Source of the DNA: Heloderma charlesbogerti
Taxonomy: Eukaryota; Chordata; Lepidosauria; Squamata; Helodermatidae
Direction: 5' to 3'
Length of the DNA: 64,000 nt
Assembly: GCA_026122225.1 (NCBI GenBank)
Contig: JANEZZ010002881.1
Coordinates: forward strand, 186,001 to 250,000
This document shows, in pieces, positions 5,667 through 63,855 of this stretch (its first letter is position 1; each line of letters opens with the position of its first letter). The translations under genes were made by a program, and so were the position numbers. The notes under the pieces are model-generated. The model did no database searches. It was not told the origin of the DNA and saw only the letters and a list, made by a program, of their open reading frames with translations.

Positions 5667-6494
5667 TAGGGATGTATGAATCCCTTAGCTTGCTCCGCTG
5701 AGGGGCGTCCACAGTGGGGGGCAGGCACTCCGTCCCTCCCCCCGGAATCCTCGATGGGGGGGAGGCGCTCTGTCCCTCTCCCTGGAATCCAGCCCGGCTG
5801 GCTCCACTCCACGGCCAAGCTGCGGAGCCGCCGGCCGGCTCCGGCCACCCACAGCCAGACATCCGGCTGCTGGGCAGCCCTGCAGGGACGCAAATGGTGG
5901 CTGTCGTAGCCGCCGCCATTTGCGTCCCTGTATTGAGCCGTGATAGGCTACGTAAATATTTACGTAGCCTATCACAGCAGGGGGAAAAACCCCAGCGTAC
6001 ACAAATGGCGGCAGCTACCGCCATTTGCGTACGCTGGGGGAGGTTTTCCCCCTGCCGTGATCGGCTATGTAAGCATTTACGTAGCCGATCACGGCAGGGG
6101 GGGGGGAAAACCCAGTGTACGCAAGTGGCGGTAGCTGCCATTTGTGTACGCTGGGGTTTCCCCCCCCCCCCGCCGTGATAAATGGACGCAAATGGTGTCC
6201 CTGCATTAGCCGTGATAGGCTACGTAAGTATTTACGTAGCCTATCATGGCTTGAAGAGGAGGAAGCGAATGGAGGCCGCAGGACGGCCACCATTCGCAAA
6301 GCAGCATGGACGGGAGCAGGTAAGTGCTCCATTTCGCGCGCCTTTTGTGGGGTGGGGGCGGTGGGGACTTCGTCCCGCGTGCCTTTCATGGGTTGGGGGG
6401 GATGGGGGCTTCGTTCCACGATGGATTTCGGGGGGCCAAATGCACTGGCATTCAGCCTCACCGAGATCCGTCACGGAATTCTCTGACATCCCTA
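5667..6494 (+). mobile_element. palindromic hAT-type nonautonomous element, copy 1
   Basis: Bounded by TAGGGATG at the left (A end) and CATCCCTA at the right (B end), with a perfect 8-bp target duplication GACGTAGG at 5659-5666 and 6495-6502. An 8-bp duplication and TAGGG-type ends are hallmarks of hAT transposons. It encodes no transposase. The core holds alternating palindromes: P2 at 5883-5930, P1 at 5937-5978, P2 at 5993-6036, P1 at 6054-6095, P2 at about 6110-6156 and P1 at 6209-6250. A CAG/GTAAGT donor at 6317-6325 points out of the B end; the A end has lost its donor. Inserted into the L2 at 5128-7675. Confidence 0.9.
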
Positions 6495-7675
6495 GACGTA
6501 GGGGAGAAGGCACTCCCGAAGGTACCTTGGACATAGACCATGTAAGGCTTTAACAGTAAGAACCAGCACCTTATAGTTTGCTCAGAAACAAATTGGCAGC
6601 CAGTGTAAAGATTTTAAAAACCAGTGTAATATGGTCTCCACGGGATGTCCCAGAGACCAACCTGACTGCCATATTTTGTACCAGTTGAAGTTTCTGAACT
6701 AAATATACAGACAACCCCAAGTGCAGAGCATTACAGAAATCATGCCTAGGGCTTACCAGTCTGTGCACTACCGTTACCAGGTCCATATATTCCAGAAATG
6801 GGCATAGCTGGCGTATCAGCCCAAGTTGATAACAGGCATTTCTTGCCATTGCCTCCACCTGGGTTGCCAGGAGTAGGATTGGGTCAAGAAGCACCCCCAA
6901 GCTATGAACTTGCTCCTTCACGGGGAGTGCAACCCCATCCAGAACTGGTTGACATACCTCAATACCTGAATTAGGGCCCTTCACAAAGAACACCTCTATC
7001 TTTCTTGCCTGGATTCAACTTCAGTTTGTTCTCCCTCATCCAGCCCATTACCTACTTCAGGCAGTCATTCAGAGATGTCATACCTCCCTTGGATAAAGAT
7101 GTTAAGGAGAAATAGATTTGGGTGTCATCAGCGCACTGATAACACCCAGCCCCAAACATCCTGATGATCTCTCCCAGCAGTTTCATGTAGATATTAAACA
7201 GCATCAGGGATAGAATGGAGCTCTGAGGGACTCCACATAATAGTTCCTTTTTAGAGGAACAACTATCCCTGAGTGAAACCATCTGGAACAGTTCTGAGAG
7301 AAAGGAGAGGAACCACTGCAGAGCAGTGCCCCCAACCTACAACTCCCTCAGGCAATCCAGAAGGATACCATGGTTGATCAAACACCGCTGAGAGAGCCAA
7401 AACAATCAACAGAGATGCACTTTCCCTATCGATTCCCAGGTGATGATCAACCACCAAGTCGACCATGGCACTCTCAACACTGTATCCCACTCTGAAGCTG
7501 GTTTGAAATGGGTCCAGGTAATCAGTTTCATCCAAGATTGCTTGGAGTTGAATGGACATTGCCTTCTCAATTACCTTGCCCAAAAATGGTAAATTACTTA
7601 CTGGCTTATAATTACTGAAGTCTAGGGGGTCAAGGGAAGACTTCTTCAGAAGCGGTCTAACGATTGCTAACAATA

Positions 7676-8359
7676 ATAATACTTAACATGGGAAGAACAT
7701 TTTTCTACCTCGTAAGCCCTGTAACAGCAGTTCGGCAAATGACTCCTCCACATCAGGATGTGGAATCTCCAGACCATGGGCCTAATTCAGCTTCTGCATC
7801 CAGCTTCTGCATCCAGCCCACAGGGCCCCCTTGGGTTCTAAGCCTTGTCCCCTGGAGCAAATCCCCACTCTTATCTCAGGTCTGAGATTGGAGTTATCAG
7901 TGGGGATGCGAGAGACTCAGCCAGCATTGAGAGGAGCTGGCCACTTGTTGCAGTGGTTGCCAAATGACAGTGCACAACCACATGAAGTCAGGGACTTGAC
8001 TTGTCCTTGGGTGGGGGTGAGGAAAATGGCTGCTCCTCCTAGCACAGGCCAAGTCCCTTTCTCCATGCTAAAAGAGAGGCACAGAGGCATGCAAAAAAGA
8101 AAAACGGGTGGGGAGATGATATTAGTGGGTGTGGTCACATCATCTGGCCCATGGAGGACCTGGTGGTGGTGATTCCTCCCCCCCGCCCTCCTATGCCATC
8201 CTGGTTCAGCACCCCTGCTCCACGTCATGGCACGCCAACAGACATACCACTTGGACCAAAGTTAATAGACATTAACCAGGTAACTTTTATTTATGGATCA
8301 CCAAACCAGAGTGTGGTGTTTGTACAGGGCACACATATCTAAAGGAGTCTTTCCCTAAA
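7676..8359. other. no gene recognised
   Basis: GC-moderate sequence without a known motif. A 15-base direct duplication, AGCTTCTGCATCC, lies at about 7790-7817. Confidence 0.4.
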
Positions 8360-9100
8360 GGGAGTGTAGTAGCTCAGTGGTAAGAGCAACCGCTTTGCAT
8401 GCAGAAAGTCCCAGGTTTGATGCCTGGCATCTCCCAGTAGGGCTAGGAAAGAATCCTGCCTGAAACCTTGGAGAGCCACTGCCAGTCAGTGTAGCCAGAT
8501 GGGCCAAGGGTAGGGATGGCGGAGAATTTCTCCCCGAAACTTCGGGGGGCCAAGCGCCAACGTGTTCGGCCCCCCGAACAAGTTTCGGGGAGAAATCCTC
8601 CGAACCCCCCCGCACCCCGCACCCCCCCCCGGGACGGGACTTACCTTCGCCGAATGTCCCTCCCGGCGGCGGGTCCGGCTGGCGGTTCGGCGGGTGTTCG
8701 AGCGGGGCGGGAGCGGCAGCTGGTCTTTCGACCGGCTGCCACTGCCGCCATTGCAATAAAAGAAAAAAAAAACGCCCCCTGATAGGCTACGTGACGATTC
8801 ACGTAGCCTATCACGGCTAGATTTGCAAAGTCAGCCGTGATAGGCTACGTGAATCGTCACGTAGACTATCAGGGGGCGTTTTTGTTTTGTTTTTTTTAAA
8901 CTTTTGCATTCACGGCCGGGCGAGGCAGGAAGCCTCCTCCCCGGCCTGAATTTCGGCCGGGGCAAGGCGGGAAGCCTCCCCCCCCGGCCTGAACTTTGCG
9001 GGGGGAGCAGCGAAGCACCTCCCCCCCACCGCGAACGTCCTTCGACGACAGGTAAGGGACTTTCGTCCACCCCTAGCCAAGGGTCTGATTCAGTGTAGTG
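8360..9100 (+). mobile_element. tRNA-derived SINE split by a hAT element
   Basis: The head is tRNA-like: A box TAGCTCAGTGG (8370-8380) and B box GGTTTGATGCC (8414-8424), correctly spaced for an RNA polymerase III promoter. The CTTTGCATGCAG anticodon-region text is typical of this reptile SINE. The tail runs through GAATCCTGCCTGAAACC and GGAGAGCCACTGCCAGTCAG to GCCAAGGG, where the copy-2 palindromic element is inserted. It resumes at 9076 with GTCTGATTCAGTGTA. A second, reverse copy lies at 32540-32720. It is not a tRNA gene: there is no 3' acceptor-stem match. Confidence 0.85.
8511..9075 (-). mobile_element. palindromic hAT-type nonautonomous element, copy 2 (short form)
   Basis: Perfect 8-bp target duplication GCCAAGGG (8503-8510 and 9076-9083). 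It runs B end to A end. The core is a single large hairpin (about 8771-8882) made of two P1 modules, GATAGGCTACGTGACGATTC and its mirror, flanked by matching C/G-rich and A/T-rich arms. There is no P2 module. Donor-like AAG/GTAAGT (minus strand, 8639-8646) points out of the left end and CAG/GTAAGG (9049-9057) points out of the right end. G-rich subterminal repeats built on CGGCCTGAA / GAATTTCGGCC lie at about 8915-9035. Confidence 0.9.
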
Positions 9101-9102
9101 TC

Positions 9103-9165
9103 CCCCAGATGTATTGGACTACAGCTCTCCAGCCAGCATGGCAACACTGGCCCAAATTCCATGGA
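9103..9165 (-). repeat. fragment of a dispersed MITE-like repeat
   Basis: CCAGATGTATTGGACTACA and GCCAGCATGG are the mirror image of the GGGAGTTGTAGTCCAACATC text at 55420-55532, so both come from one dispersed family. Confidence 0.5.
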
Positions 9166-10228
9166 TTCCAGTTTAAAGCAGGTTACGTACATCTCTAGAT
9201 TCAAGCAATACACCTACTCTGTACTACTTAATTCAAAACTTAGTTATTAACTGAGTTTCTAGGGAATGTGTCCATAATATGGAGTCAAAATAAAGTTATG
9301 TTTATCTCTGGCCTCAAAATTTCACCAATGCAAGATTAGGGCGTCTTAGGTAAGCAGTAACACTTTTTCACTGGTAGATACATCTCAGTTTTAAAATGCT
9401 TTCAGAACTGCTCAGTTGCTGATAGTTATCTGATTGTTCTTGTTGCACATTCTGTCACCTGAGAGCCATGTGAAGCCACTAGGACATTTTAAGAAATAAA
9501 GTTAGATTGTCAAGGGGGAAAAAAAACCCTCACCTCTCAGGTAGGCACCCAAATAAGTCAAGATTTTGGTTGAAGTTTGCAGCTTCCAGTCCCATGTTCT
9601 GTACAACTAACGTGTCAGGGAAATGAAAGCCAGGTTCTTTAGATAATCAGACCCCTAAAAGTGCTTTCAGCCAAGACATGCCTGACAATGTTAAGAAGGC
9701 TACCTGTAAATCTATCTAGAAGTACAGAACAGAAGAGAAACAATCTCAGCTGCACATTCCTGACAAATACTAAATGGCAGTATCTCAACGCTTCTGTGAT
9801 TACACATCCCTGCCCCAAACCCATCACCCACATTACGTTTATTTCCTGCTACCTTGGTCAAGTTACATGAAGGATTGTTTGATGAGCGAGACTGAAATTT
9901 GATCACTCTGAAAGCTTCTTTGCAGCTAAAAAAACAACAGCCGCCGCCACCCTGTACTGTTTGGGATCTGTGCTACTTGCCTGAATGAATTCTGTCAAAG
10001 CAAACAGTTGTTCACTCTGCTGTCCCAGGAAGACATTGCACTGGTACTGCTTCAGTGACCACACGGTTGATGGAATTATACCCAGTATAAGTAGCCACTG
10101 AATCCCTTGAGCATGGATTCTGACTTACGCTAGATTCACTCTGCATCTATGCCAAGAACACAAATATCAAATATCTCATTCTCTCTGAGGATACGGTCAT
10201 GTCTGCATAGTTCCTTCAAGTATTTTCT
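9166..10228. other. no gene seen
   Basis: No recognisable coding, RNA or repeat signal beyond short A-rich runs. Confidence 0.4.
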
Positions 10229-10299
10229 GCAATCCTATATACACTTATCTGGGAGCAAGCTCGACTGAACCCAATGGGATTTATGAATAGGATTGCACC
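10229..10299. mobile_element. hairpin MITE, degenerate copy
   Basis: Ends GCAATCCTATATACAC and GAATAGGATTGCACC are imperfect inverted repeats around a centre that contains CCAATGGGA. Same family as the copies near 28202, 40533, 42035 and 45312. Confidence 0.65.
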
Positions 10300-10980
10300 T
10301 ATTTAAGTTGCTTTGGTTCTTGGTTCTGTTCTCACTGGGGATGAATTCAATGACCTGGTGGCTGCTGGTATCTCATCTACATAGTGACTGTTTCAGATGG
10401 AGGGCTGTGCACAAGCAGTGGCTTACCGCATGGAACCCTTGTTCATTTACCATACTACTGTGACCTATCTTTCCTCTATATGTTTCTAGAATTGGCAATA
10501 CAAGACTCTGTTCACTGAAATGAATGATGGTACAGTCACCAAGTGGATGGATTTAACATGGCAATTCAGTGGAAGCAGCTCAAATTCAGATCCCTGATAC
10601 TCTTCTGTAGGCTAGGCCTCATGGTCTTTTTGGTCCTTCTCTTCTTGACATCATGGAACTTGTTCTTCTATTGTCTTCTCAGCACTGTCCAAGTTTCTGA
10701 TCTTTTGTGATTCCAATCATATCTCTCTCATCTGCTGCCCTGAATTTTTCAGCTTACCTAATCAGTTTCCCTCATTGCTATATAACCTGCCCCCCTCTCT
10801 TTTCCATGATATGTTGATGTTTCCCTATGGTCTGTCCTCTCTTTTTCCACCTCTTGATGCTATTATGTGTTCTTTTGGTCTCCAATATCATCTTTTGGTC
10901 TCCAATATCATCTGCTTACTGATGACCTTCACTTTACTGTTGCTTGATCTTACTGGTGCTTGATTTCACTTCTCCTTCCT
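10300..10980. other. no gene seen; T/C-rich sequence
   Basis: Pyrimidine-rich. It includes a perfect tandem duplication of TCTTTTGGTCTCCAATATCA at 10871-10912. It may be decayed L2, continuing into the next feature. Confidence 0.4.
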
Positions 10981-12190
10981 TAACTAGGATGTCTGATGCT
11001 TCCTCTGCTATTTCCTTACAGATAACTTCTGAAATCTGATGAAACTGAGCTTCTACTGCCTTCTTTACACACTTTCGTCTCCGTCATTCTCAGTTCCTTC
11101 TAATAGGTAATTCTATTGTTACTTCCACCTCTCAAACTCATAACCTCAGTGTAATCCTTGATCCTTCTTTTATTTTCTAGACACATACCCACTCAGTGCT
11201 TTTGAATGATTTATCTAAAACTCTTGTTCACTCTTCCATTATCTCTTGCACTGACTACTCCTTTGCTTGGACTTTTAGCTTGCCTAATCGCTCATAATGA
11301 TATGCTCATGTTATTTTTCTCTTCCACTCTCTATAGTTCTATTCTATTTAAACAAGGGCTGATCCAAACATCTGTCACCACAGAATTCTGAAGTCTTCAC
11401 CTGGGTCATTGGAGGCTAAAGATCCACCCAACCATTAAGAGAGGGAGGCAGACGTTTGAGTGTGAGGAGAAGAAATTCGAGATGCGGGAACTTACATTTG
11501 ACAAGGTAGCCATGGAGGCAGCCATTTTTTCATCCAAACAACGTCACTGGGAACCATATGACATCATCACAAAGCAATGATCCCAGCATCATTCTCAAAA
11601 GAGGACTCTAATGAACCAGGAGCTGGCTGCTGAGTGCAGCAGCTTGCCCTTGTTTAAATGAAAAGGGGGATGGGGTGGGGAGACAGAGGCCAGTCAACTA
11701 CCTCATCAAGTAATAACCCTGAAAGAGTTGCAACTTTTGTGGGGACCCCAAGAAGGTCAGAAAAATTCTTCACATGCTTACACTGGCAGCCAAAGGTCCA
11801 GCAAACGTGGGAAGATAAGCTGAGAGCAGACCTAATTTAAACTTCTTCTGTTAACTTTTAAATCTCTTGCTCCCATCTATCTGTCTGCTCTTCCCTCTGT
11901 GTCCCTTTGTGCTCCTCTCTGGTACCATTGTCCTCCATAAAGGCAAGATTGCCCTTCACAGAGTCCACACACTTTCTCTTCCTGTATCTACCACTGGAAC
12001 ACTATATTTCTGACATCTGCTCAGCACCTTCCATTGCTGTATTAACTCACCTGATAAAAACTTACCTCTTCACTCTGGCATTTAACTGTTCATGCATACC
12101 TAGCTCAATCCTCCATTGCCCTTTCTCTTGTGGTTTTACTAATATTTTAAGCCCAAGGGCATGACCTTTGTCTTATTTTTGCTTTATACA
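10981..12190 (+). mobile_element. ancient L2 LINE fragments
   Basis: Broken plus-strand reading frames keep L2 signatures: SDETELLLPS (about 11035), a region reading like NLSVILDPSF (about 11140-11170), and KTLVHSSIISCTDY (about 11220-11260). After an unrelated stretch (about 11300-11840) an L2 C-terminal region continues to about 12090, ending in KTYLFTLAFNCS. Many stops and frame shifts; much older than the L2 at 60707-63294. Confidence 0.65.
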
Positions 12191-12222
12191 AAGCTCCTAG
12201 TCTTTTTAGGTACTCTAAATAA

Positions 12223-16235: not shown

Positions 16236-16275
16236 TTAGACTGCTCCTTCTCTTTAAAATGCACAGTGCTTAAAC

Positions 16276-18900: not shown

Positions 18901-20150
18901 TCATAAGAACTTAAGAAGAGCCATGCTGGATCAGACCAAGGGTCCATCAAGTACAGCTTTCTGTTCACACAGTGGCCAACCAGCTGTTGACTGGGAACCC
19001 ACAAGCAGGGCATGAGCACAACAGCACCCTCCCACCCATGTTCCCCAGCAACTCGTGTACATAGGCACACTGCCTCTGGTACTGGAGATAGCACATAGCC
19101 ATCAGGACTAGTAGCCATTGATAGCTTTTGCCTCCAGGAATTTGCCCAACCCCTTTTTAAAGCCATTCAAATTGGTGGCTATCACTACACCCTGTGGTAG
19201 CGAATTCCATAGTTTAACTATGTGCTGAGTGAAGAAGTACTTCCTTTTATCAGTCCTGAATCTCCCACTAATCAGCTTCATAGAATAACTCTGGGTTCTA
19301 GTATTTTGAGAGAGGGAGAAGACTGTCTCCCTATCCACATTCTAGGGATGTACGAAAGGTACTTACCTTTCGGGGATTATGCTGATGGTGCGGGGGGAGG
19401 CGCTCCATTCCCCCCCCCCGGAATCCTGGCCGGCCGGCTGTACACCGCAGCGATTCTGCAGAGCCGCCAGCCGGCTCTGCCAGCAGCCGGACATCCGGCC
19501 ACTAGCTAGCAGGGATGCAAATGGCGGCGGCCATAGCCGCCGCCGTTTGCATCCCTGCAGTCAGCCGTGATAGGCTACGTAAATCTTTACGTAGCCTATC
19601 ACGGCTGATTAAAAAACAAAACGCGCATACGCAAATGGCGGCGGCCATGGCTGCCGCCATTTGCGTACGCACGTTGTTTTTTTTGTTTTTTGTTTAAGTC
19701 AGCCGTGATAGGCTACGTAAAGATTTACGTAGCCTATCACGGTGGTTTTTAAAAATCTAGCCGTGATAGGCTACATAAATCTTTACGTAGCCTATCACTT
19801 TTTTTGTTTTGTTTTGTTTTTAAACCTGGAAATGGCAGCAGCCGGTCGGAAGACTGGCCTTCACAGCTGCCGCTGCCGAACTGCCACCGGAGCCACCGCC
19901 GGAGCCGCCGCCAGGAAGATCCGCCCCAGGTAAGTCCCGTCCCAGGGGGGTGGCGGGCCGTTCCACCACCGATTTCGGGGGGCCAAATGCGCTGGCATTC
20001 AGCCTCCCCGAGATCCGTGGCGGAACGTTCGTACATCCCTACCACATTCTCTACACCAACACCATGCATAATTTTGTACACCTCTACCATGTCTCCCCTT
20101 ACCCTCCCTTTTGCCAAGACTCAACCCAGAGAAGGGCAGTCCATATATAG
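18901..20150 (-). mobile_element. CR1-group LINE 3' portion, split by a hAT element
   Basis: On the minus strand, 19338-19108 encodes a LINE C-terminal stretch with KYFFTQHIVKLWNSLPQGV. The 3' UTR ends at about 18904 with the dispersed text GATCCAGCATGG..CTTCTTAAGTTCTTATGA. The copy is interrupted at 19342 and resumes at 20042 with CTCTACACCAACACCATGC. Other copies of the same 3' end lie at 21000-21110, 23790-23880 and 50815-50970. Confidence 0.75.
19343..20041 (+). mobile_element. palindromic hAT-type nonautonomous element, copy 3 (best example)
   Basis: Perfect 8-bp duplication CCACATTC (19335-19342 and 20042-20049) around TAGGGATGTACGAA and TTCGTACATCCCTA. Order A to B. The core holds P2 (19511-19556), P1 (19563-19606), P2 (19623-19670), P1 (about 19701-19742) and P1 (about 19759-19798). 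Each P1 is GATAGGCTACGTAAAT mirrored around two to four bases; each P2 is CAAATGGCGGCGGCCAT mirrored. Donors point out of both ends: AAG/GTAAGT on the minus strand at 19361-19368 and a perfect CAG/GTAAGT at 19927-19935. No transposase frame. Inserted in a CR1-group LINE. Confidence 0.95.
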
Positions 20151-21845: not shown

Positions 21846-22326
21846 TAGGGACGTTAGAGAATTCTGCCACAGACTCCAATGAGGCCAGATTCTAAAGAAT
21901 CCAGCCCCTCAGAGTCTGTGGCGGAACGGACCACCCACCTCCACCACTCCGCAAAGTTGCCACGGAACGGATCCTACCTGCCACCAGCCAGTCCAGTCTG
22001 TCTACCGCCGTCCTACGGAAGAAAATGGCGTCCGGCATAGCGGACACTATTTGCGTCCCTGCTCTTTGCAGTAATAGGCTACATAAATCTTTACATAGCC
22101 TATCACGGCAAAGAGCAGGGAGGCTACGCCGGACGCCATTTACATCCCAGCGGCTGGAAGTCTGCCAGCGGCCAGAAGTCTGCCAGCGGCCGGAGCCGGC
22201 CAGCAGTTCCGCGGACTCGCCGCAGAGCGGAGCCAGCCAGCCAGGATTCCGGGGGGGGGGGACGGATCACCTCCCCCCCCCACGGACCTCCGCGGACTCC
22301 AGGTAAGGGGGTTTCGCACATCCCTA
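21846..22326 (-). mobile_element. palindromic hAT-type nonautonomous element, copy 4
   Basis: Starts TAGGGACGTTAGAGAATTC (B end) and ends GCACATCCCTA (A end). Flanks ATGAGTAT (21838-21845) and ATAAGTGT (22327-22334) match 6 of 8, both differences being transitions, as expected of an old target duplication. The core (22024-22147) is one nested hairpin: P2-like arms AAATGGCGTCCGGC, then CTGCTCTTTGC arms, around a central P1 (22073-22108). Donor-like CAG/GTAGGA points left (minus strand, about 21972-21980) and CAG/GTAAGG points right (22300-22308). Confidence 0.85.
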
Positions 22327-25589: not shown

Positions 25590-26556
25590 CACTGTTCCTT
25601 CTGTGAAAACTCCTATCCATGTGCTGGTTATCCCTTGCCGTGACTACTGCTATCTTCTTCTCTCTGGTCTCCTGTTTCCTTACCATCATCTACTCACATC
25701 CATCCAGCCCCCTGCTGTCAAAATTATTACCTCTCTCATTGTTCTAACCATTTGACCCTAGTCCTTAAATCCCTTCACTGGCTTCCTCTCTATTTCTGGA
25801 TCTTGTGCAGTCTTCTTGTTTTCCTTATAAAGCGCTCCATGACCTGCCTCTGCTTATTTCTCTGTACTTATATCCAACACATCTAGGGGTGTATGAAACC
25901 CCACTTACCTGCATCTGCGGGGGGTCCACCAGGGGGGAGGCAATCCGTTCCTCCCCCCAGAATCCTCGACGGGGGGGGAGGCGATCCGTTCCTCCCCCCT
26001 TGGAATCCTCCCCAGCCGGCTCCGCTCTGCAGCGAGTCCGCAGAGTTGACTGCCAGGCTGCGGCCGCAAATGGCATCCCGCGTAGGGGACACCATTTGCG
26101 TCCCTGCTCTTTGCCGTGATAGCCTACGTAAATATTTACGTAGCCTCTCACGGCTAAAGCGGGGACGCAAATGGCGTCCGCTACGCAGGACACCATTCAT
26201 GGCCGCAGACCAGACGGCAGTGGCCAGATTCGGACCCACCAGAGGCAGGTAGGAGCCGGTCCGCCAAGACTTCGTGGGGTGGCCGGGGGGATTGCTCGGT
26301 TCCACCACAGACTCCGGGGGCCGAATTAACTGGAATTCACTGGAATTTGGCCTCACTGGAGTCCGTGGCGGAATTCTCCGCCATCCCTAAACACATCTTT
26401 TCCTGTGACTTTCATTCACCCAACTGCACCACCCTCACCTGTACTACCACTTATGCCTGGAACCACCTCCCCAAATCCCTCCATGTGATCACTTCCCTTA
26501 TTTTCTGTAAGTCCTTCCTCAAAACTCACTTTTTCTGGGAAGCCTTTGCATCGTCA
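25590..26556 (+). mobile_element. ancient L2 LINE fragment split by a hAT element
   Basis: Plus-strand decayed frames keep the L2 thumb order: CRDYCYLLLSGLLF (about 25640), a region like SIQPPAVKIIT (about 25705), LNPFTGFLS (about 25770), then after the insertion WNHLPKSLHVITS (about 26455-26500) and KTHFFWEAF (about 26525). Several stops; inactive. Confidence 0.65.
25884..26389 (+). mobile_element. palindromic hAT-type nonautonomous element, copy 5
   Basis: Perfect 8-bp duplication AACACATC (25876-25883 and 26390-26397) around TAGGGGTGTATGAA and CCGCCATCCCTA. Core 26070-26200 is P2-P1-P2, with P1 at about 26117-26153 and the outer P2 arms GGGACGCAAATGG. Donors point out of both ends: a perfect CAG/GTAAGT on the minus strand (25903-25911) and CAG/GTAGGA (26246-26254). 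Copies of the G-rich subterminal unit lie at 25918-26015. Confidence 0.92.
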
Positions 26557-28016
26557 CCTTATTTATTTATTTAAAATATTTTTTGGCCGCCTTTCAGAGC
26601 AGAAGCCCTCCCAAAGCGGCTTACAATAAAGTACATAAAAACAATTAAAATATTAAAAGTGATAAAAATGTAGAAACAATAAAAACTGACAACAAACAAT
26701 TAAAACCAACAATAAAACCAACAACGATGTTAACAGCAGCAACAGTAGCAGTGATATCAGCAGAAGGCCAAGGTAAAATAATATGTTTTCAAGGCCTTCT
26801 TAAAAGACTGCAATGAGGGAGCATGGCAGACCTCCAATGGCAGGTTGTTCCAAAGATGAGGGGCCAATGCAGAGAAGGCCTTCTCACGTGTGTTCGCCCA
26901 CCTGACTGCTCTCACAGGTGAGCAAATAAGAAGGGCCTCTCTTTCTGATCTTAAAGTGCAGGCAGGCTGATATGGGTGTAGACGGTCCTTCAAGTAACTT
27001 GGTCCCAAACTGTTTGAGGCTTTAAAGTCAAAACCAGCACTTTGAATTGGGCTCAGAAACGCACTGGTAACCAGTGCAGCTGGCGCAGTATAGGCGTTAT
27101 ATGATCGAATTGGCTCACCCCCACCAATACTCGGGCAGCCGCATTCTGCAGAAGCTGGAGTTTCTGAACCGTCTTCAAAGGCAGCCCCACGTATAGCGCA
27201 TTACGGTAGTCCAGCCTGGACGTGACTAGTGCATGGATAACTGAGGCAAAGTCCGTCCTCTCCAGATAGGGCTGCAGTTGGTGTACCAGCCTAAGCTGGT
27301 AAAAAGCACTCCTGGACACCGCAGCCACCTGGGCTTCCCCAGTTAGCTTAGAGTCCAGGAGGCCTCCCAGACTGCACACTTGGTCTTTCAGGGGGAGTGC
27401 AATCCCATCTAAGACCACTTGTATACCTCCATCTGAAGTAGTTGGTTTCCCAACCCACAGTACCCCCGCCTTGTCGGATTACGCTTGAGCTTGTTCACCT
27501 TCATCCACCCCCAAACAGCCTCCAGACACTGGTTCAAGAGTTCCACAGCCTCCCTGGGATGTGCAGGTGGAAACAAGAGGAAGAGCTGAGTATCACCCAC
27601 ATACTGATGACATTTCAGCCCAAACCTCCCGGTGACTTTCCCCAGCGGTTTCATTTAGATGTTAAAAAGCAGGGGGGACAAGATAGAACCTTGCAGCACC
27701 CCACAGGCTAATGGCCATGGGGTGGAACCGAAGTCCCCCAGCACCACCTTCTGAGACCGCTCCTCCAGAAAAGACCGGAACCACTTTAAAACTGTGCCTC
27801 CCAAGCCCAGTCTAGATAAACAATCCAGAAGGATACCATGTTCGATGGTATCGAAAGCCACTGAGAGATCCAGAAGAACCAACAGGGTAGCACTCCCCCC
27901 GTCCATTCCCCAGCATAAGTAATCAACCAGGGTGACCAAGGCGGTTTCCGTCCCATAACCAGGCCTGAAACCTGATTGGAATGGATCTAAATAGTCCCTA
28001 TACCTCACTGTAACTA
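26557..28016 (-). mobile_element. L2-clade LINE, 5'-truncated
   Basis: On the minus strand it holds the second half of the L2 reverse transcriptase and the 3' UTR. Visible in order: YLDPFQSGFRPGYGTETALV (about 27990), VLLDLSVAFDTIEHGILLD (about 27870), GVLQGSILSPLLFNI (about 27660) and the catalytic box (27593-27604), which reads YVGD instead of YADD. Then come ALVTSRLDYRNALYVGLPL (about 27210) and WNNLPLEVCHAPSLQSFKK (about 26840). The 3' UTR (26557-26756) has the usual CGGCTTACAATAAAG text. Frame shifts separate four frames; loss of one catalytic Asp makes it inactive. Confidence 0.9.
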
Positions 28017-28201
28017 AACCAAAGTATGGGTAATTGGAAGAAATTGCATATTCCTCCCCTGATTACCCATGCCTTCCCTTCCTCTGTACTCTGTTGTTTC
28101 CTTGTGTCTATTTTGCATTAAGCCTCCTGTGCTAGGGACCTGTCACACCTCATCTTTGTAAAGCACCATGTCCATAGGTGACACTACATCTGTATCTATT
28201 T
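28017..28201. other. no gene seen
   Basis: Short unremarkable gap between an L2 and a MITE. Confidence 0.4.
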
Positions 28202-43612: not shown

Positions 43613-43614
43613 TA

Positions 43615-45265
43615 CAGCCAGGGCCAGAAATATTGGAACAAGGATAACTGTTTTGGCAGATGGCCTCTGTACACCACCACATTGAAGTTGAAAGGAAACA
43701 CACCCAGATGGGAGCGAAGTCAGAGCTTTCAGCTGTAATTCAAGGGGTTTGACAAAAGTGGGGCACTAACCATTCGGGAAGGACAGCCAGTGGCATACAC
43801 ACACCCCCATCGTTGGGGGCTCATAAGTAATGGAACAAACCAACATCATTTCAAACTTAAGGATCGCCTGTAATACCTGGATGAAAATCCTTTGCAGTCA
43901 ATGACTGCCGGAAGTCTGGAACCCATGGACATGACCAAATGCTGAGTTTCCTCCCTCGAGATGCTTTGCCAGGCCTTTGCTGCAGCTGCCTTCAGCTGCT
44001 GCTTGTTTGCGGCTCTTTCTGCCTTCAGTCTTGTCTTCAGTAAGTGAGAAGCATGCTCTATTGGGTGGAGATCAGGTGACTGACTTGGCCACTGAAGAAC
44101 ATCCCACTTCTTTGCCTTCAGAAACTTTTGGATAGCTTTTGCTGTATGTTTTGGGTCCTTATCCATCTGCAATATGAAGCGGCGTCCTATCAGTTTGGCA
44201 GCATTCTGCTGAATCTGAGCAGAAAGTATAGCCCTATACACTTCAGTATTCATCCCATTGCTTTTATCAGCAATCAGGTCATCAATAAACACCAGTGACC
44301 CGGTTCCATTGGCAGCCATACATGTCCATGCCATAACACTGCCTCCACCATGTTTGACAGATGATGTGGTATGCTTTGGATCATGAGCTGTTCCTTTCCT
44401 TCTCCATACTTTTCTCTTCCCATCATTCTGGTACAAGTTAATCTTGGTTTCATCAGTCCAAATAATCTTATTCCAGAACTGGGCAGGCTTTTTTAGGTGT
44501 TTGCTGGCAAAGGCTAATCTGGCTGGCCTGTCTGTTCTTGAGCATTACCAATGGTTTGCACCTTGTTGTGAAGCCTCTGGATTTACATTCATAAAGCCAT
44601 CTCTTGACTGTAGATGTTGACAATGACACGCCTACCTCCACAAGAGTGTTCTTGACCTGGCTAGATGTTGTGAAAGGGTTCCTCTTCACCATGAGCAGAA
44701 TTCTGTGGTCATCCACTTTAGTTGTCTTCCGTGGTCTTCCAGGCCTTTTGCTGTTGCTGAGCTTGCCAGTTAATTCCTTCTTTTTCAGGATGTTCCAAAC
44801 TGTTGTATTGGCCACTCCCAATGTTTTTGCTGTCTCTCTGATGGGTTTATTTTGTTTCCTCAGCCTAATGATAGCCTCCTTCACTCACATGGACACCTCT
44901 TTGGACCTCATGTTGGGAGTTCCAGTGAACAGCTACCAAATGCAAATGTAACACTCAGAACCACCTCCAGGCCTTTTATCTGCTAGATTGGTCATGGGGC
45001 ACTAAGGAAATAGGCTACACCTGGCCATGCAGCTGCTTGTCAGCCATTCGTTCCATTACTTATGAGCCACCAACCATGGGGTTGTGTGTATGCCACTGAC
45101 TGTCCTTCCTGAATGGTTAGTGCCCCACTTTTGTCAAACCCCTTGAATTACAGCTAGCAGTCCTGACTTCACTCCCATCTGGGTGTTTTCAACTTCAATG
45201 TGGTGGTGTACAGAGGCCAACTGCCAAAACAGTTATCCTTGTTCCAATATTTCTGGCCCTGACTG
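43615..45265 (-). mobile_element. Tc1/mariner-type DNA transposon, near full length, IR/DR ends
   Basis: A 1651-bp element flanked by TA dinucleotides (43613-43614 and 45266-45267), the Tc1/mariner target site. Ends CAGCCAGGGCCAGAAATAT and its mirror extend as imperfect inverted repeats of about 220 bases on each side (about 43615-43836 and 45045-45265). Each repeat holds an outer motif ATTGGAACAAGG and an inner motif TAATGGAACAAA, the arrangement called IR/DR. Between them, on the minus strand, lies a broken DD34E transposase. The ends and coding part are well preserved compared with other DNA transposons here. Confidence 0.95.
43846..44911 (-). pseudogene. Tc1-like DD34E transposase, disabled
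   Basis: Would catalyse cut-and-paste transposition by binding the inner and outer repeats. The expected ATG is at 44911 (MRSKEVSM). Codon 9 is a TGA (44885-44887), then the helix-turn-helix part IRETAKTLGVANTTVWNIL and an AT-hook-like GRPRK follow. A frame shift lies shortly before the first catalytic Asp: the frame that started at the N terminus runs to a stop at about 44468, while the continuing frame carries WTDET (Asp at 44452-44454), QMDKDPKHTAKA (second Asp at 44161-44163) and PDLHPIEH (Glu at 44056-44058). Exactly 34 residues separate the second Asp and the Glu. All three catalytic residues survive, so only the stop and the frame shift are obvious lesions. Confidence 0.92.
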
Positions 45266-45311
45266 TACTTGCTGATTGCATATAGCTAACAACAAGGAAA
45301 TTCATGCTACT

Positions 45312-56065: not shown

Positions 56066-57587
56066 ATTTGTATTCATTTGTATATTTTATTAAAATATAT
56101 GCAAATTTAATATTACCCATTGAGGATAAGTGTTGAAAAAGAAATGCCCAGGCAGCTAAAATCAGCCCCCCGCCCCCCAAAAGGTGCTACACTAGTAAGC
56201 TAGCCTTATGTATCCAGTTTTGCAGCCAATTACATGTACATATTTTAAGGCTAGTTCCTTTCCTTCTTGATGTTCCTCTGATTTCTCTGGTCCCATAAGA
56301 TTACACTATAACAAGCAGGGCCTCACAACAAAATGTTGCGGTGTAGCCTTAGCACGTGGGGGTGGTTGAGTCATATGAGCCTGTGGCTGAGGGGGCTGCA
56401 AATTGTGCAAAAAACAAACAGTGGCATCAAAGTCAGTGATTAAAAAGTGAATCACCTTATTTCTATCAATATGCGTCCAGACATTAACATAGTCATTGAC
56501 GTGGTTAACAAGAATGGTTTTATTCTATTTTCCAGCTCTAACTCGTCACGTGACTGAAAATAAAATGAATTGTAACATATTACACTTCTTTATGATGTGG
56601 CACTGCTGAAAGCATAAAAAAGGTGAACACTGCAGAACACAAAAGATTGAAAAAGGCAATTAAATCTATGCATCATTAAACAGATCATTCAGTACAAGAT
56701 GGTTTTAATAAATGAAGCATTTTAATATTAAAAATTATATTTACAAACACTGAAGATCACACACATTCCATCTCAGTAATTTGCAACTCAAGTCTCTCAG
56801 TTTCACATTCATTTACTCAGGGAGGACAGAAAACTTGGCATCTTCAACAAAGCTCAGTTCACCATAGAAGTTCTTTCCAACTGCAATCACAGTGTTGGCA
56901 GATAGCACAGAACTATGAACTATACATAGAAATGTTCTCTCCATTCACCCTGGAGGACGTTGATAGCCAAGGAAAGTCCATAGATTCAAAAGAATATGAT
57001 CCCAACTACACTAATGGAAGGGAACGCGACCAATTTCATCGGTTTCCCACACACAAGCCTTTGTCTAAGCTGCCTGGGATAGCATTGCAGTGAAGAGTGA
57101 CAAACTACCACATCTGATTGCATTTGATGAAACGGTCTCTAATCCACAAAAACGTATAGTGTGATAAATTTGTTAGTCATTAAGGTGCCACAAGGTTCTT
57201 TGTCGTTTAAATAATCACAGGATGACGTAGTACCTGCCAGTAGTTCAGACGCATCTAAATTAGAAGCAGGTAAAGGTCAACTGGAGGAAAACACCATTTT
57301 GTATAAGACTTGCCAATGGAGAGGTCAGTGAAACAAATACGATTTAAAACTTTTTTATTTGAAGATTTTGTTTTAGTTACAAAACTGCAATATATTTTTC
57401 CAACATTACATTAAGCATTCATTTCAAACATAACCACTAATTTTCACTTACATATTCTCTTTTCAGAAGCCCTATGGAGGCATTCAGCCTACTCACATTT
57501 ATGGCTAAAAGTGGGGAAGGGATGTGGGCACAGATATAAGTTCCAACCCCAGCGTCCCTGACCTCCCCATGTTAAGCTGGAAGGCCT
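56066..57587. other. no gene seen in about 1.5 kb
   Basis: Unremarkable, AT-rich. No LINE or SINE signature. Confidence 0.4.
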
Positions 57588-58075
57588 TAGGGATGGACGA
57601 AAGTCACTTACCTGATCCCGAAGCTTGCTTCGTGGTGGGGGGGAGGCGCTCCGTCCCTCCCCCCAAAATTCTGGCCGGGGGGGAGGTGCCCAGTCCCTCC
57701 CCGCCTAAATTCTGGCCAGGGGGGAGGCGCACCGTCCCTCCCTGCCGAAATTCGGGCCAGGGGGAGGCGCCCCGTTCCCTCCCCGCCGAAATTCTGGCCG
57801 GGGGGGAGGCGCCCCATCCCTCTGGCCCCAAAACATCGTCTCCTGTTGGGACACAAATGGCGGCGGCTGTAGCCCCCGCCGTTTGCGTCCCTGCAGTCAG
57901 CCATGATAGGCTACGTAAATGTTTACGTAGCCTATCACGGCTGGCTTTGAAAAAAAAAAAAAAAGCGCGTACGCAAATGGCAGCACCCATGGGCGCCGCC
58001 ATTAGCATTCCTTATTTTGGCACGTGTAGTCTACGTAAACATTTACGTAGACTACGGCGAAAATAAAGGCAACGA
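57588..58075 (+). mobile_element. palindromic hAT-type nonautonomous element, copy 6 (one-ended)
   Basis: Has the A end TAGGGATGGACGAA, with a perfect minus-strand CAG/GTAAGT donor at 57606-57614. About five tandem G-rich subterminal units of about 40 bases follow (57638-57835; each GGGGGAGGCGC .. CCGAAATTCTGGCC), then P2 (57855-57893), P1 (about 57900-57942), P2 (about 57965-58010) and a P1 variant (58028-58058, TAGTCTACGTAAACA mirrored). It stops near 58075 without a B end, so the right part is deleted or lies elsewhere, and no target duplication can be found. Confidence 0.85.
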
Positions 58076-59488
58076 AGTTGGTACCTGAGAGCATTTGCAC
58101 TGTAAAGCCAGTTGAAACTTGGCTGCTGTTAACAAAAGGCCTATTAATTCACGTCATTTACTTGGAATATTATCTTCCTCTAAGTAAGCAAAGGGAATGG
58201 TAAATGGGTTCAAGGGGATTGGACAGCCTATAATGGACATTATATAGTCAAGCATACTTCTCCAGTATTGGATTACCTTTGGGCAATGTATGTATGTAAA
58301 TATGTTCCCCTGCCATTATATTTCTTTTCAAAAGCAATTTCGTTTCTAGCACATTGAATGACTGCGCGAAAAAAAAAATGTGGGAGAAATTTTTGGCACA
58401 ACATTACTCAACATATACCAGAAACAGGAACGATTTCTCCAAGAAATAATCTTTGAAGTTAGGTTACAAAGCAGCCCTAATTTCCATAGATATTTTGTCC
58501 ATTGTAAGTAATTTCCATACTTTCTCAGTATGTTCCCCTGTCTTCTAATATATATTGGGATATTTATTGTTAGCATAATGCTTTTTTATCAGGGTACAAT
58601 ACCATCTTGTCATTTGTTTAAAAGCGATTTCCTTGATCTTGGCAGATGGTGAAGAAAAGATGCGTGAATTCCAAATTTTGTCCATACCACCCAATTCCCT
58701 GTTTCAACCAATTTCTTTGCCCATCTCATTACACATGAAGGTTCCTTAAATATTATTTGTGTCAGCTTAAAGCCATTCTACATATACAGAATGAGCAGGT
58801 AAACTGAGATGGTAGAATTCTGGGCTGTACCACTTCAGACTGTAGATGGGGTGTCATTTTTTTAAATGTTCAGTGCATATAGTAAAATAGCATACCAGAG
58901 AGAGAACTATGCTAAACCTTTGTTTCTTATATATTGGTGAGAGTTTTGCTCTCAGTATATGCTGGGAGTTTTGTATTTTCAACATTAAAGTATATGACAC
59001 ACATACCATGCAGTCTAAAGAGGTACAATACAAAGTTCTGCTACCTCAGTCTATCACCTCACACTGCATAATGTGTAGACTGATTCTAAATGTGTCTGTT
59101 TTAATAATTATACTTTTAATTGCATTTGTTAGTCTTCATACACCCCTTTTTTACTGTCATCCAACTTGACACGCTGGTTACCAGGAATGGGTAGTATTAG
59201 TGTTTACAGACTGTGTGAAGAAATGCCATGTATATAACTGTTGTTCTTCTGTAACGTTTACTTTCTGTGGCCTCTGGGAGGCTATAATGTATCTGAGTAG
59301 ACCTAAGGCCTTGCTTTGTTACTGTCCAAGGCCTGTGCAATGGTTGCTCAGTGACGTTCTGAAACGGGGGAGAGAGAATTGCTCTGAATATTTATATATG
59401 GAGCCTGGATCAGGTAAATTCCATGTTGATTGGCTGGGCATTCTAACTAGGTGGTTGGGAAACAACAGTTGAGCAGTTAACAGTTAAG
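58076..59488. other. no gene seen
   Basis: AT-rich. The 59230-59488 part has a CCAAT-type ATTGG (about 59437) and resumes after the next element with GGGGATAAAACCC (about 60447). An LTR-like unit split by that element is possible but unproven. Confidence 0.4.
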
Positions 59489-60367
59489 TAGGGATGTCAG
59501 AGAATTTCGCCACGAATCTCGGGGAGGCTGAATGCCAGCGCATTCGGACCCCCGAAATTGGTGGCAAAACAGTCTGCCACACACACACCCCCGCCACCCC
59601 CCGGGACAGGACTTACCTTGGGCGAATCCTCCTGGAGGCAGCGGCGGCGGCATCGGTTCAGCGGCGGCGGCATCGGCGGCCGGTCTTCCGACCGGCTGCC
59701 ACCACCGCCATTTCTAGTAAAAAACAACAACAAAAAACGTGACAGGCTACGTAAAGATTTACGTAGCCTATCACGGCTAGATTTTTAAAAAATCCCATGA
59801 TAAGCTACGTAAATGTTTACATAGCCTATCACAGCTGAGTAAAAAAAAAAAAAAGCACATACGCAAATGGCGGCGGCCATGGCCGCTGCCATTTGCGTTC
59901 CTTATTTTGGCACATCTTAGTCTACATAAACATTTGCGTAGACTAAGACAGCGAAAATAAGGGGAACGCAAATAGCGTAGACGCTGCGCTATTTGCGTTC
60001 CCCTTATTTTCACCATCTTAGTCTACATAAATGTTTACGTAGACTAAGACATGCCAAAATAAGGAACGCAAATGGTGGCGGCCATGGCCACTGCCATTTG
60101 CGTACGCATGTTGTTGTTGTTGTTTTTAAATCAGGCTACGTAAACATTTACGTAGCCTATCACGGCTGACTGCAGGGATGCAAACTGCATTTGCGTCCCT
60201 GCTAGCCAGCGGCCGGATGTCCAGCAGCTGGCGGAGCCGTCCGGCAGCTCCGCAGAATTGCTGCAGAGCACAGCCGGCCGGCCAGGATTCCGGGGGAAGG
60301 GACGGAACGCCTCCGCCCCCACCATCAGCATGATCCCCGAAAGCTAAGTGATTTTCGTACATCCCTA
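59489..60367 (-). mobile_element. palindromic hAT-type nonautonomous element, copy 7 (longest)
   Basis: Runs from TAGGGATGTCAGAG (B end) to TTCGTACATCCCTA (A end). Its core is the largest hairpin in the window: modules from about 59803 to 60170 mirror each other around a centre near 59981. From the outside in they are P1 / P1, P2 / P2, a P1 variant with TCTTAGTCTACATAAA, then GAAAATAAGGGGAACGC / GCGTTCCCCTTATTTTC. An additional P1 lies at 59740-59778. AAG/GTAAGT (minus strand, 59611-59618) points out of the left end; the right donor has decayed to GCTAAG. The flanks CAGTTAAG and AGATCAGG do not match. Confidence 0.88.
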
Positions 60368-60706
60368 AGATCAGGACTGGGAGCAGGTGGCTGTGTTATG
60401 CCAGAAGGCTGCCCTAAGATCTTGCCAAAAGTTATACAAGCAGGGGATAAAACCCAGATAAACTGTCTGAGTAGCTAGAAATACAACAGGAGGAACTTTG
60501 GGAGTCAGAGGAACGCTGTATCCAAGAGCTGGACCTGGTTGTGAGTGTATTTGACTGGAGTGGAGGTTTAGGGAATTTGGCCTGAGGTAAAAGATGTCAT
60601 TAAGAGGCTTGAATTGCACCAGTGTCTCTTGAGTCCTTAAGAATTGTCAATAAGCAGTTTTTTTGAAATCCCCAAAGTAAATATTAGTATTCTTTATATG
60701 TGAAAT
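60368..60706. other. no gene seen
   Basis: Contains the GGGGATAAAACCC text mentioned above and no coding signal. Confidence 0.4.
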
Positions 60707-63294
60707 ATTTACTTTATTTTTATTTACAATATTTATATACCGCTCCTCATCAGAAGATTTTGGAGCAGTGAACAACATGATAAAAGAATAAAACAATGGT
60801 TAAAAGAGTTAAAAAAATTTTTTTAAAAAAGACAAATCCCAATGAAGTGGAGTTCAAAAAACCACAGCTGGTCATGCAAGGAAGGCCTCTTGAAAGAACA
60901 ATGTCTTCAGGAGGCGCCGGAAGGAACACAATGTTGGCACCTGCCTGACCTCTAAAGGCAGGGAATTCCACAGGAAGGGGGCCACCACACCAAAGGCTCT
61001 TCTCCTGGTGGACTCCAACCGGGCCATGGGTCCATGTGGAACCACCAGGAACATGCCCTCTGATAACCTCAGTGACCAGGCAGGTTGGTATGGAAGGAGG
61101 CGCTCTCTCAGGTATCCTGGTCCCAAGTTGTTTAGGGCTTTGTACATTAGTACTAATAACTTAAACCTGGCCCGGTAGCGAATAGGCAGCCAGTGCAGTT
61201 CCCTCAGCAAAGGAGTTGCACGCTGAAAAGGGGCAGCTCCCGACAACAGCCGAGCTGCTGCATTCTGCACTAGCTCCAGCTTCCGGACCAGCCTTAAGGA
61301 CAGCCCCACATAGAGCGCATTGCAGTAATCCAGTCTTGAGGTTACTAATGCATGTACCACCGTGGTCAAGCTATCCCTGTCCAGGACAGGCCGTAGCTGG
61401 CGACCCAGCCAAAGCTGGTAAAAGGCACTCCAAGCTGCTGCAACCACTTGGGCCTCCAGCGACAATGATGGATCTAGGAGTACCCCCAGACTACGGACCT
61501 GATCTTTCACAGGGAGTGCAACCCCATCAAGAACAGGCAATGAGCCTATCTCCCAGAGCCGGGAACCACTCACCCACAGGGCTTCCGTCTTGCCAGGATT
61601 CAGCTTCAGTTTATTGGCCCTCATCCAGCCCATCACTGAGTCTAGGCACTGATTCAGGACTTGCACAGCCTCTCCTGATTCAGATGTCACAGGGAGGGAG
61701 AGCTACGTGTCATCCGCATACTGATGGCATTTAGCTCCAAATCCCCGAATGACCTCTCCCAGCGGCTTCATATAGATGTTAAACAACATTGGGGACAGGA
61801 TGGTACCCTGCAGCACCCCATAGCTCAATTGCCAAGGGGCCGAGGAATAGTCACCCAATGTTACTCCCTGAAATCGGCCCTGTAGGTAGGACCAGAACCA
61901 CTGTAGCACAGTGCCTCCAATACCCATCCCATGGAGTTGATCCAGGAGGATACCATGGTCAATGGTATCAAAAGCCGATGAGAGATCGAGCAGAATTAAC
62001 AGGGTTGCACTCCCCCTGTCCCTCTCTCGATGAAGGTCATCCATCAGGGAAGCAAGGCTGATTCAGTCCCGTAACCAGAATGAAACCCAGACTGAAATAG
62101 GTCTAGATAATCAGTATCCTCCAAGAATGCCTGCAGTTGGTTCGCCACAATCCTCTCAAGTACCTTCCCTAGAAAAGGGGCATTTGCGACTTGCCGGTAG
62201 TTGTCTAATGCCATTAGGTCCAGGGTGGGCTTCTTCAGGAGTGGCTGCGCTACTGCCTCTTTAAGGACAGCAGGGACCACCCCTTCCCGCAGGGAAGCAT
62301 TTATCACTCCCTGGACGCACCCACTCATACCCCTTCGGCTAGCTTTTATTAGCCAGAAGGGACAGGGATCAAGAGGGCATGTGGTTGTTCGCATTATTGC
62401 AGCCATCTTGTCCACATCATCAGGCCGTAACAACTGGAACTGATCCCACAAAATCAGGAAGATGGTGGCATCAGACACCTCGACTGGTACTGCACTAACA
62501 ACAGCATCAAGGTCGCTGCGGAGACAAGAAATTTTGTCCTCGAAGTGCAATGCAAAAAGGTCACAGCGGGTACTCGACGGGGCCAGGGCCCCATTTACTG
62601 GGGAAGGTGTTAACAACTGCCAGACCACCCGGAAGAACTCTGCTGGACGGCTACTTGAGGACACAATGGAGGCAGCAAAATAAATCTTCTTTGCTGCCCA
62701 CACTGCCACGCAATAGGCACGATTATGCACTCTACAGCGTGCTCGGTGGTCTTCAGTTCGAATCTTGCACCATTTGCGCTCCAGCCGACATCCAGCCTGT
62801 TTCATTGACTGCAGCTCCCCAGTATACCAGGGAGCAGAACGTGTTCCACAGTGCCGGAAAGGGCACTCAGGTGCGATCATGTCGATGGCCCTCTGCATCT
62901 CACTGTTCCACAGTGAGACTAGGGCCTTGGCTGGATCACCAGCTCTCTCCACTGGAAAATCCCCAAGAGCATTCAGAAATCCATTGGATTCCATCAGTCT
63001 CCTGGGGCGGACTATCCGAATAGGTCCCCCACCCCCACGGGAGGAGAGTAATACCGTAAGTTTAAATCTCACCAGGAAATGGTCTGACCATGACAATGGG
63101 GTTACTTGGAGCCCCCCAATCTTCAGACTACCCATCTCACAAGTTGGAGCAAAAACCAAATCAAGGGTGTGCCCTGCTTCATGTGTTGGGCCGATGACAT
63201 ACTGAGACAGTCCCATGGTTGTCATGGAGGCCATGAAGTCCTGAGCTGGAACTCTGGAGACAGCCTCAGCATGGAAGTTTAAGTCACCCAGAAC
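60707..63294 (-). mobile_element. L2-clade LINE, 5'-truncated, best preserved of the window
   Basis: About 2.6 kb on the minus strand from the middle of the endonuclease (LGDLNFHAEAVS near 63275) to the 3' UTR (TTTATATACCGCTCC, 60735). Visible in order: HTLDLVFA (about 63160), SWSDHFLVRFKL (about 63080), NYRQVANAPFLGKVLERIV (about 62190), LLDLSSAFDTIDHGILLDQL (about 61975), QYADDT (YADD at 61709-61720), LVTSRLDYCNALYVGL (about 61335) and WNSLPLEVRQVP (about 60960). Confidence 0.93.
60872..63294 (-). pseudogene. L2 endonuclease/reverse transcriptase, lightly disabled
   Basis: The frame is open over three long blocks (63294-62047, 62044-61706 and 61690-60875), with few visible lesions: a frame shift near 62044, between the fingers and palm of the reverse transcriptase, and a TAG directly after QYADDT near 61703. 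Both catalytic Asp residues remain. It lacks the N-terminal half of the endonuclease, so it is dead on arrival like most truncated LINE copies. The small number of lesions suggests a fairly recent insertion compared with the L2 copies at 5128 and 26557. Confidence 0.85.
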
Positions 63295-63855
63295 TAAGGA
63301 TCTCGGAGAATTTCTCCACGAATCTCCGGGAGGCTGAATGCCAACGCATTCAGCCCCCCGAAATTGGTGGGGAAATTCTCCGTCCCCGCCCCCCCCGGGA
63401 TGGGACTTACCTCTGTCGAATGTCCCTCTCGGCGGCGGGTGCCAGCGGTGTTTCGGCAGTGGCGGGGCCGGCGGCCGGTCTTCCAACCGGCTGCCGCCGC
63501 CACCATTTCCCCGTAAAGTTTTAAAAAAAAAGTGATAGGCTACGTAATGATTTACGTAGCCTATCACGGCTAGATTTTCAAAGTCAGCCGTGATAGGCTA
63601 CGTAAATCGTTACGTAGCCTATCACTTTTTTTTTTCAATTTACTTTTTTATTTCACAGCCGGGGAGACGGTGCGCTCCCCCCCCGGCCTGAATTTCGGTG
63701 GCGAGGGATGGGGCACCTCCCCCCTGGCCTGAATTTCAGCCGGGAGGGGTGGGGCGCCTCCCCCCCATCATGAATTTCGGGGGGAGAAACAGAGCTCCTC
63801 CCCCCCACCGCGAAGCAAGCTGCAGGACCAGGTAATGGACTTTCGTCCATCCTTA
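63295..63855 (-). mobile_element. palindromic hAT-type nonautonomous element, copy 8 (short form)
   Basis: Left B end reads TAAGGATCTCGGAGAATTTC, a decayed or partly host-derived terminus, and the A end is GGACTTTCGTCCATCCTTA. As in copy 2 the core is two P1 modules in one hairpin (63532-63627). Minus-strand GAG/GTAAGT (63405-63413) points left and CAG/GTAATG (63829-63837) points right. About four G-rich subterminal units lie at 63658-63805. No matching 8-bp flanks were found. It abuts the endonuclease part of the L2. Confidence 0.85.

Follow-up and report, generated by a model that had tools for sequence, protein, structure and literature searches.

Vertebrate genomes contain hAT miniature inverted-repeat transposable elements (MITEs), which are short, non-autonomous and high in copy number, and which have terminal inverted repeats and a target-site duplication (TSD). 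Here we describe a family of this kind from Heloderma charlesbogerti, present as eight copies in a window of 64,000 nt (positions 186,001 to 250,000 of contig JANEZZ010002881.1, assembly GCA_026122225.1) of a 2.30-Gb genome. The non-autonomous hAT-type element is a known kind, and what this family appears to add is a palindromic, promoter-like core together with a conserved pair of 5′ splice donors, one near each end and both facing outward. No report of conserved outward donor pairs in a transposon was found in the open-licence literature searched.

The closest parallel is found in maize, where Ac/Ds transposons and Ds1 are likewise hAT elements with an 8-bp duplication and splice donors near their termini. 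According to the accessible part of PMC5432752, Ds has donors in both orientations, one forward and four reverse, whereas under the Ds1 model, as we read it, a transcript running into the element uses a donor no more than 35 nt past the point of entry, which faces inward; the donors of the Heloderma family, in contrast, face out of the element on either side. That account also credits Ds1 with two acceptors; a crude scan indicates acceptor-like sites in the Heloderma family. The available portion of PMC2647555 describes putative donors, D1–D4, in a gene-trap construct, at its Ds 5′ end. A second parallel is provided by the oocyte promoters and first exons derived from ORR1, MT, MT2 and MLT, in which a repeat supplies host genes with both a promoter and a first exon, as the present family would with its donor; these are, in the text of PMC7786948 that was available, long terminal repeats (LTRs) of retrotransposons, whereas the present family is a DNA transposon that would act in both directions. 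The relation between SAFB and transposable element splicing, which is treated in the part of PMC10901741 at hand, has little bearing here.

The family is hAT-type by structure, because of its terminal repeat and its 8-bp TSD. Terminal repeats of the TAGGGATG type, which we take to be like that of Ac, are common to the window copies, whose two ends are both of the form TAGGG(A/G)(T)G, with TAAGGATG in copy 8. hAT terminal repeats are defined as starting with YARNG, and the element ends do so. The TSD matches at 8/8 positions in copies 1, 2, 3 and 5 and at 6/8 in copy 4; it was not found at copies 7 and 8 (a 3/8 match each), and the B end of copy 6 is missing, so that the window offers 15 ends in all. 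The seven copies with both ends are 481–879 bp long, and 56 full-length elements collected from the genome are 492–1231 bp long. Like MITEs, they are short, numerous and without a transposase: the frame through copy 6 matched no Pfam family, and none of the 10 open reading frames scanned with Pfam, out of 67 in the window, was hAT. Longer partner elements were sought among pairs of A and B ends more than 1.3 kb apart on one contig (C1), and no TSD-bounded long element was seen in the five of eight pairs inspected; the candidates were pairs of separate elements or had no TSD.

Exact matches to the terminal repeats indicate how abundant the family is. The A-type repeat TAGGGATGKACGAAA occurs 61,597 times in the genome (23 for the reversed-pattern control) and the B-type repeat TAGGGATGNCNGAGAATT 92,010 times (1 for its control), both figures being counts of exact repeat ends and not of whole elements. 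From the B ends and a typical length of 0.8 kb, the family may account for some 3% of the genome. Of the first 100 A-type ends listed, roughly half fall at approximately 5.3–5.9 Mb of C1, a dense cluster by comparison with the remainder of that listing. Outside the source genome, no copies were found: two patterns had 0 matches in viral contigs, where an 18-mer was matched once by chance, other genome contigs that were searched gave 0, and a protein search yielded none among 1102 candidates. In the literature, the only match to the terminal repeat was unrelated plant-virus work.

The original prediction listed outward donors at 13 of the 15 ends, and all of them are present where it placed them and on the strands it gave. 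Copy 1 (5667..6494, plus strand, running A to B) is flanked on both sides by the 8-bp TSD GACGTAGG and has the B-end donor CAG/GTAAGT at 6317..6325 (plus), with its exon end 175 nt from the terminus. Copy 2 (8511..9075, minus; perfect 8-bp TSD) has AAG/GTAAGT at 8639..8647 (minus) at its B end and CAG/GTAAGG at 9049..9057 (plus) at its A end, 24 nt from the terminus. In copy 3 (19343..20041, plus; perfect TSD CCACATTC) the A-end donor is AAG/GTAAGT at 19361..19369 (minus) and the B-end donor CAG/GTAAGT at 19927..19935 (plus), and in copy 4 (21846..22326, minus; TSD 6/8) the B-end donor is CAG/GTAGGA at 21972..21980 (minus) and the A-end donor CAG/GTAAGG at 22300..22308 (plus). Copy 5 (25884..26389, plus; perfect TSD AACACATC) has CAG/GTAAGT at 25903..25911 (minus), 25 nt from the A terminus, and CAG/GTAGGA at 26246..26254 (plus) at the B end. 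The incomplete copy 6 (57588..58075, plus, the right limit being approximate) keeps its A-end donor, CAG/GTAAGT at 57606..57614 (minus). Copy 7 (59489..60367, minus; TSD absent, 3/8 match) has AAG/GTAAGT at 59611..59619 (minus) at its B end, and copy 8 (63294..63855, minus; TSD 3/8, tested one base off at 63295–63856) has GAG/GTAAGT at 63405..63413 (minus) at its B end and CAG/GTAATG at 63829..63837 (plus) at its A end. As predicted, a donor is missing from no more than two ends, the A ends of copy 1 and copy 7: the former reads AAGCTAAGG, perhaps by way of a small deletion, and the latter reads AAGCTAAGT, changed at +1. The A donors, which had been placed about 20–25 bp inside the element, were measured at 24 nt from the terminus, or 25 in copy 5; the B donors lie 112–175 nt inside.

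Scored with an approximate vertebrate 5′ splice-site matrix, the window donors range from 7.7 to 12.6. Ten sites in the window copies score at least 11, all of them at outward ends, against a mean of 0.3 and a maximum of 2 in 200 dinucleotide-shuffled sets; sites of this strength occur at 2.00 per kb inside the elements and 0.20 per kb elsewhere in the window. At a loose threshold of 7 there is little excess (16 sites, shuffle mean 10.6, maximum 18), and therefore the signal resides in the strong sites. Beyond the donors, no further site of at least 9 was found in the window copies, and the Tc1-like element of the window has one such site (9.1), far from its ends. The claim that 13 donors at 15 ends would be unexpected by chance thus stands insofar as the strong sites lie far above the shuffles; it does not stand as a count of 13 independent events, because the copies are homologous, and for this reason genomic copies were examined.

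A scan of genomic copies, as the original prediction had proposed, bore out the pattern. Ends were chosen by their terminal repeat only, giving 90 A-type ends among the first matches listed, all on C1, and 48 B ends, which were left of 50 regions once two mis-specified ones were set aside and are nearly all from one contig. An outward donor (score at least 8.4, 12–60 nt inside) is present in 81 of the 90 A-type ends, and an outward donor 60–230 nt inside is present in 44 of the 48 B ends; inward donors, which Ds1 would have at its entry end, were found in 1 of the 90 and, at a score of at least 8.4, 3 of the 48. Five of the nine A-type misses proved to be B ends with an A-type repeat and a donor 112–128 nt inside, and the other eight misses, judged by eye, comprise six heptamers with one changed letter and two that resemble small deletions. 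Genome-wide, AGGTAR facing outward (YTACCT) follows the A-type repeat by 0–20 nt in 48,152 of the 61,597 occurrences, against 0 for the reversed-pattern control, and 41,300 of the 48,152 are AGGTAAG at exactly 24 nt. Variants of the heptamer at +3/+4 number 537 beside these 41,300 exact ones, a figure that lacks a partner for comparison and proves nothing.

Whole elements gave the same picture. The 56 full-length elements were required to have both ends and a TSD with no more than one mismatch (40 are perfect), and come from C1 (51) and other contigs (5). Both donors are present in 43 of them, only the A donor in 5, only the B donor in 5 and neither in 3, while 20 shuffles gave a mean of 0.15 elements with both; 79 of the 87 strong donors in these elements lie at the two outward positions. 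On six other contigs, in copies found by their likeness to copy 3, the A donor (score at least 7.8) is present in 6/6 and the B donor in 5/6. A mobile bidirectional promoter with first exons would be expected to have an outward 5′ splice site on either side, and such sites are in place.

We also looked for the outcome that the original prediction had named as speaking against it, namely GT positions no more conserved than their neighbours, and did not find it: the donor heptamer stands far above its flanks. When copies 2, 3, 4 and 6 are set side by side without gaps from the A terminus, they are identical at positions 1–5, 7–8, 11–15 and 20–26, the last being CTTACCT, that is, AGGTAAG on the other strand, and they are dissimilar at 16–19 and past position 26. 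When six copies are compared, copies 1 and 5 being excluded for their indels, no window after the repeat ranks higher than positions 20–26, at 0.90. All eight copies, ungapped, give the less favourable figure of 0.55, below other windows, because an insertion (copy 5) and a probable deletion (copy 1) smear the peak. Among the listed C1 ends, departures from the cluster majority occur in 4 of 469 heptamer cells and 138 of 938 exon-side cells, in a sample that favours the heptamer, since 72 of the 90 rows were pre-chosen to be within 2 mismatches of it (67 fell in clusters of at least 5). Exon-side sequence is correspondingly diverse, with 47 distinct 8-mers among the 81 donor-bearing A-type ends.

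The conserved positions follow the frame of a 5′ splice site, from −2 to +6. From −2 to +5 there is almost no variation at either end. A ends have A or C at −3 and T or G at +6, whereas B ends have A, C or G at −3 and T or C at +6. The variation at +3, +4 and +6 is of a sort that donors tolerate. The rows used for this position-by-position comparison were picked by the matrix, so that +1 and +2 are fixed by choice. The word is kept while its spacing from the terminus differs between copies and between the ends: 22 nt in 8, 24 in 70, 25 in 2 and 28 in 1 of the 81 listed A donors, and 73–174 nt for donors scoring at least 6 at the listed B ends. Pairing of the eight element donor words and CAGGTAATG with the 5′ end of U1 is predicted at −8.1 to −11.9 kcal/mol, and that of the changed copy 7 word at just −3.6 kcal/mol.

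Between the donors lies the core, which the original prediction rightly called CpG-rich: GC content in the copies is 0.52–0.63 and the observed/expected CpG ratio 0.75–1.04, as against 0.33 for the whole window. The core is made of palindromes, exemplified by a 44-nt family (GTGATAGGCTACGTAAA..TTTACGTAGCCTATCAC, for instance at 19563..19606, unstranded) whose 19 members all lie inside the eight elements. The 56 elements contain 162 instances of the word ATGGCGGC, a promoter motif of the YY1 type, as against 4 in one shuffled set, the former figure being raised by the palindromes. A ATGGCGGC-like word stands 95–107 nt before the B donor in copies 2, 3, 7 and 8, exactly so only in copy 2, and similar words recur in many of 30 inspected element rows. 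In the B arms of 30 elements, many rows also show a block like GGAAATGGCGGCGGCGGCAGCCGGTCGGAAGACCGG after a T-tract and before the B donor; a start site or a start-codon context is possible for this block. The A arm of copy 6 has a G-rich tandem unit of about 41 bp (57635–57825), the number of which, by eye, differs between copies.

Taken together, these properties suggest a reading in which the element is a two-way first exon, with a palindromic, CpG-rich core as a bidirectional promoter and a donor at each exit. RNA polymerase would start in the core and run outward in both directions; near each end the RNA would present a strong 5′ splice site to which U1 could bind, and the element would become a first exon on either side, joined to acceptors in flanking host DNA. 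Retention of the donors might follow from a boost to initiation by a 5′ splice site close to the promoter, which would keep the chromatin of the element open and the element mobile. In a review available in part, a 5′ splice site alone is said to raise transcription to some extent (PMC8097089). Three parts of this scheme are inferred, namely that the core is transcribed, that the donors are used and why they have been retained, and we hold the scheme as a whole with slightly less than even confidence. A stronger version, in which the family is a self-spreading two-way gene trap with tens of thousands of promoters, with donors selected among source copies through U1, and with a sizeable share of host transcripts and long non-coding RNAs beginning there, seems to us possible but rather doubtful.

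Several observations weigh against a two-way first exon. The conserved outward donors of the original prediction are joined by the enrichment of ATGGCGGC, but an unmethylated island is unsupported: the ratio of CpG to non-CpG transitions is 0.7–5.0 in 23 alignable copy pairs and 2.1 in control repeats, a crude comparison uncorrected for saturation. The elements thus lose CpGs much as other repeats of the window do, which makes germ-line methylation of the core probable, and a CpG island protected from methylation decay is unsupported on the same ground. The window copies have no NRF1, CRE (cyclic AMP response element) or TATA words and few CCAAT or GC boxes. The donor sample comes almost entirely from one contig, and the scoring matrix is approximate. 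Finally, the placement of 70 of the 81 sampled A donors at exactly 24 nt, the nearness of AGGTAAG to the A terminal repeat and its presence at both ends are also what a signal for transposition might look like; apart from the terminal repeat and G-tracts, no other 7-mer is common to at least five A and at least five B ends in the window.

This last possibility, which was absent from the original prediction, is the strongest rival and a live alternative, although we consider it unlikely on balance: AGGTAAG would be a subterminal transposase-binding motif, master copies that lost it would have stopped moving, and its match to a donor would be coincidental or secondary. Short motifs close to the terminal repeats are bound by hAT transposases. 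At the A end, four copies of differing context share 15 nt of repeat, then four variable and seven fixed positions, as a binding site might. Hermes and Herves likewise have a short motif at both ends near the terminal inverted repeats; in the accessible portions of the two reports, the Herves transposase recognises a single short motif that each end contains (PMC3143072), and in Hermes each end has short subterminal repeats (PMC10368747). The same portions give five copies in the first 55 bp of each Hermes end and several for Herves, whereas AGGTAAG occurs once per end and matches a 5′ splice site. Its position is also far different between the ends (22–28 and 73–174 nt) and variable within them, and there is no need for an arbitrary motif to agree with the complete U1-complementary word, down to the positions at which variation is tolerated. 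Were the motif a transposase site after all, it would be a striking case of a transposition signal doubling as a splice signal.

The other explanations account for less. Elements of this type usually originate as internal-deletion derivatives, and the B donor could be the leftover end of exon 1 of an autonomous parent's transposase gene, the A donor having a separate origin. The ATGGCGGC-like words before the B donor do open short frames in copies 2, 3, 7 and 8, such as MAAVAAGRKT, but the stretches from there to the donor (107, 98, 95 and 96 nt) do not differ in length by multiples of three and that of copy 7 contains a stop, so that a coding exon in the B arm was rejected, its frames not being kept; a relic would also leave unexplained the A donor 24 nt from the terminus and the keeping of both donors, and we regard it as improbable. 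Less probable again is that the words have no function, the founder having had both by chance and the copies having inherited them; all copies are related and single copies do lose donors by ordinary mutation, but the contrast between exon-side and heptamer departures, with its pre-chosen rows, already weakens this view. A host transcription-factor site at each end, for example of the ZEB type, is the least credible of these explanations. CAGGTA matches a word of the ZEB1 type, and C is the first letter in 29 of 45 B-end words, but the A ends are mostly AAGGTAAGT (43 of 81), without the C, and conservation reaches +5 and +6.

The original prediction had also suggested that the donors let the element be tolerated in transcripts, and this looks the weaker of its two options. 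In its favour, most elements have acceptor-like sites: by a crude scan, at least one is present in 53 of the 56 elements on the A to B strand and in 48 of the 56 on the B to A strand, at a density of 4.01 per kb by a crude rule without a matched control. In the window copies, such sites are not enriched (2.60 per kb, against 3.41 elsewhere). Donors at the entry end are rare, and since the donors are on the exit side, tolerance by splicing out was set aside as the principal explanation.

If the outward donors are used as a two-way first exon requires, a DNA transposon would, at tens of thousands of sites, be supplying a promoter plus a first exon in each direction. Donation of a promoter with a first exon is known mainly from LTRs (PMC7786948). 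If this reading is true, selection of a non-coding transposon for a signal at the RNA level also becomes testable.

Finally, the elements lie among other repeats, including what we take to be BovB-like and L2-like long interspersed nuclear elements (LINEs), a repeat content that by itself points to a vertebrate and probably to a squamate. Pfam matched RVT_1 in two frames of the window and Tc1-type transposase families in two neighbouring frames. Three related minus-strand LINE-like stretches (6571–7682, 26757–28062 and 60872–63290) lie near copies 1/2, 5 and 7/8, respectively, and of three frames scanned from these stretches RVT_1 was matched in 27655–28062 only. By eye, the B end of copy 8 (63294) adjoins a LINE-like frame (62044–63597, minus) for which Pfam gave no match. 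The absence of a TSD from copies 7 and 8, together with the abutment of copy 8 on this frame, suggests rearrangement through these palindromic elements. A Tc1/mariner-like element at 43613–45267 has inverted ends of 81 nt at 98% identity, and matches to DDE_3 and a Tc3-type helix-turn-helix domain fall in two overlapping frames within it.

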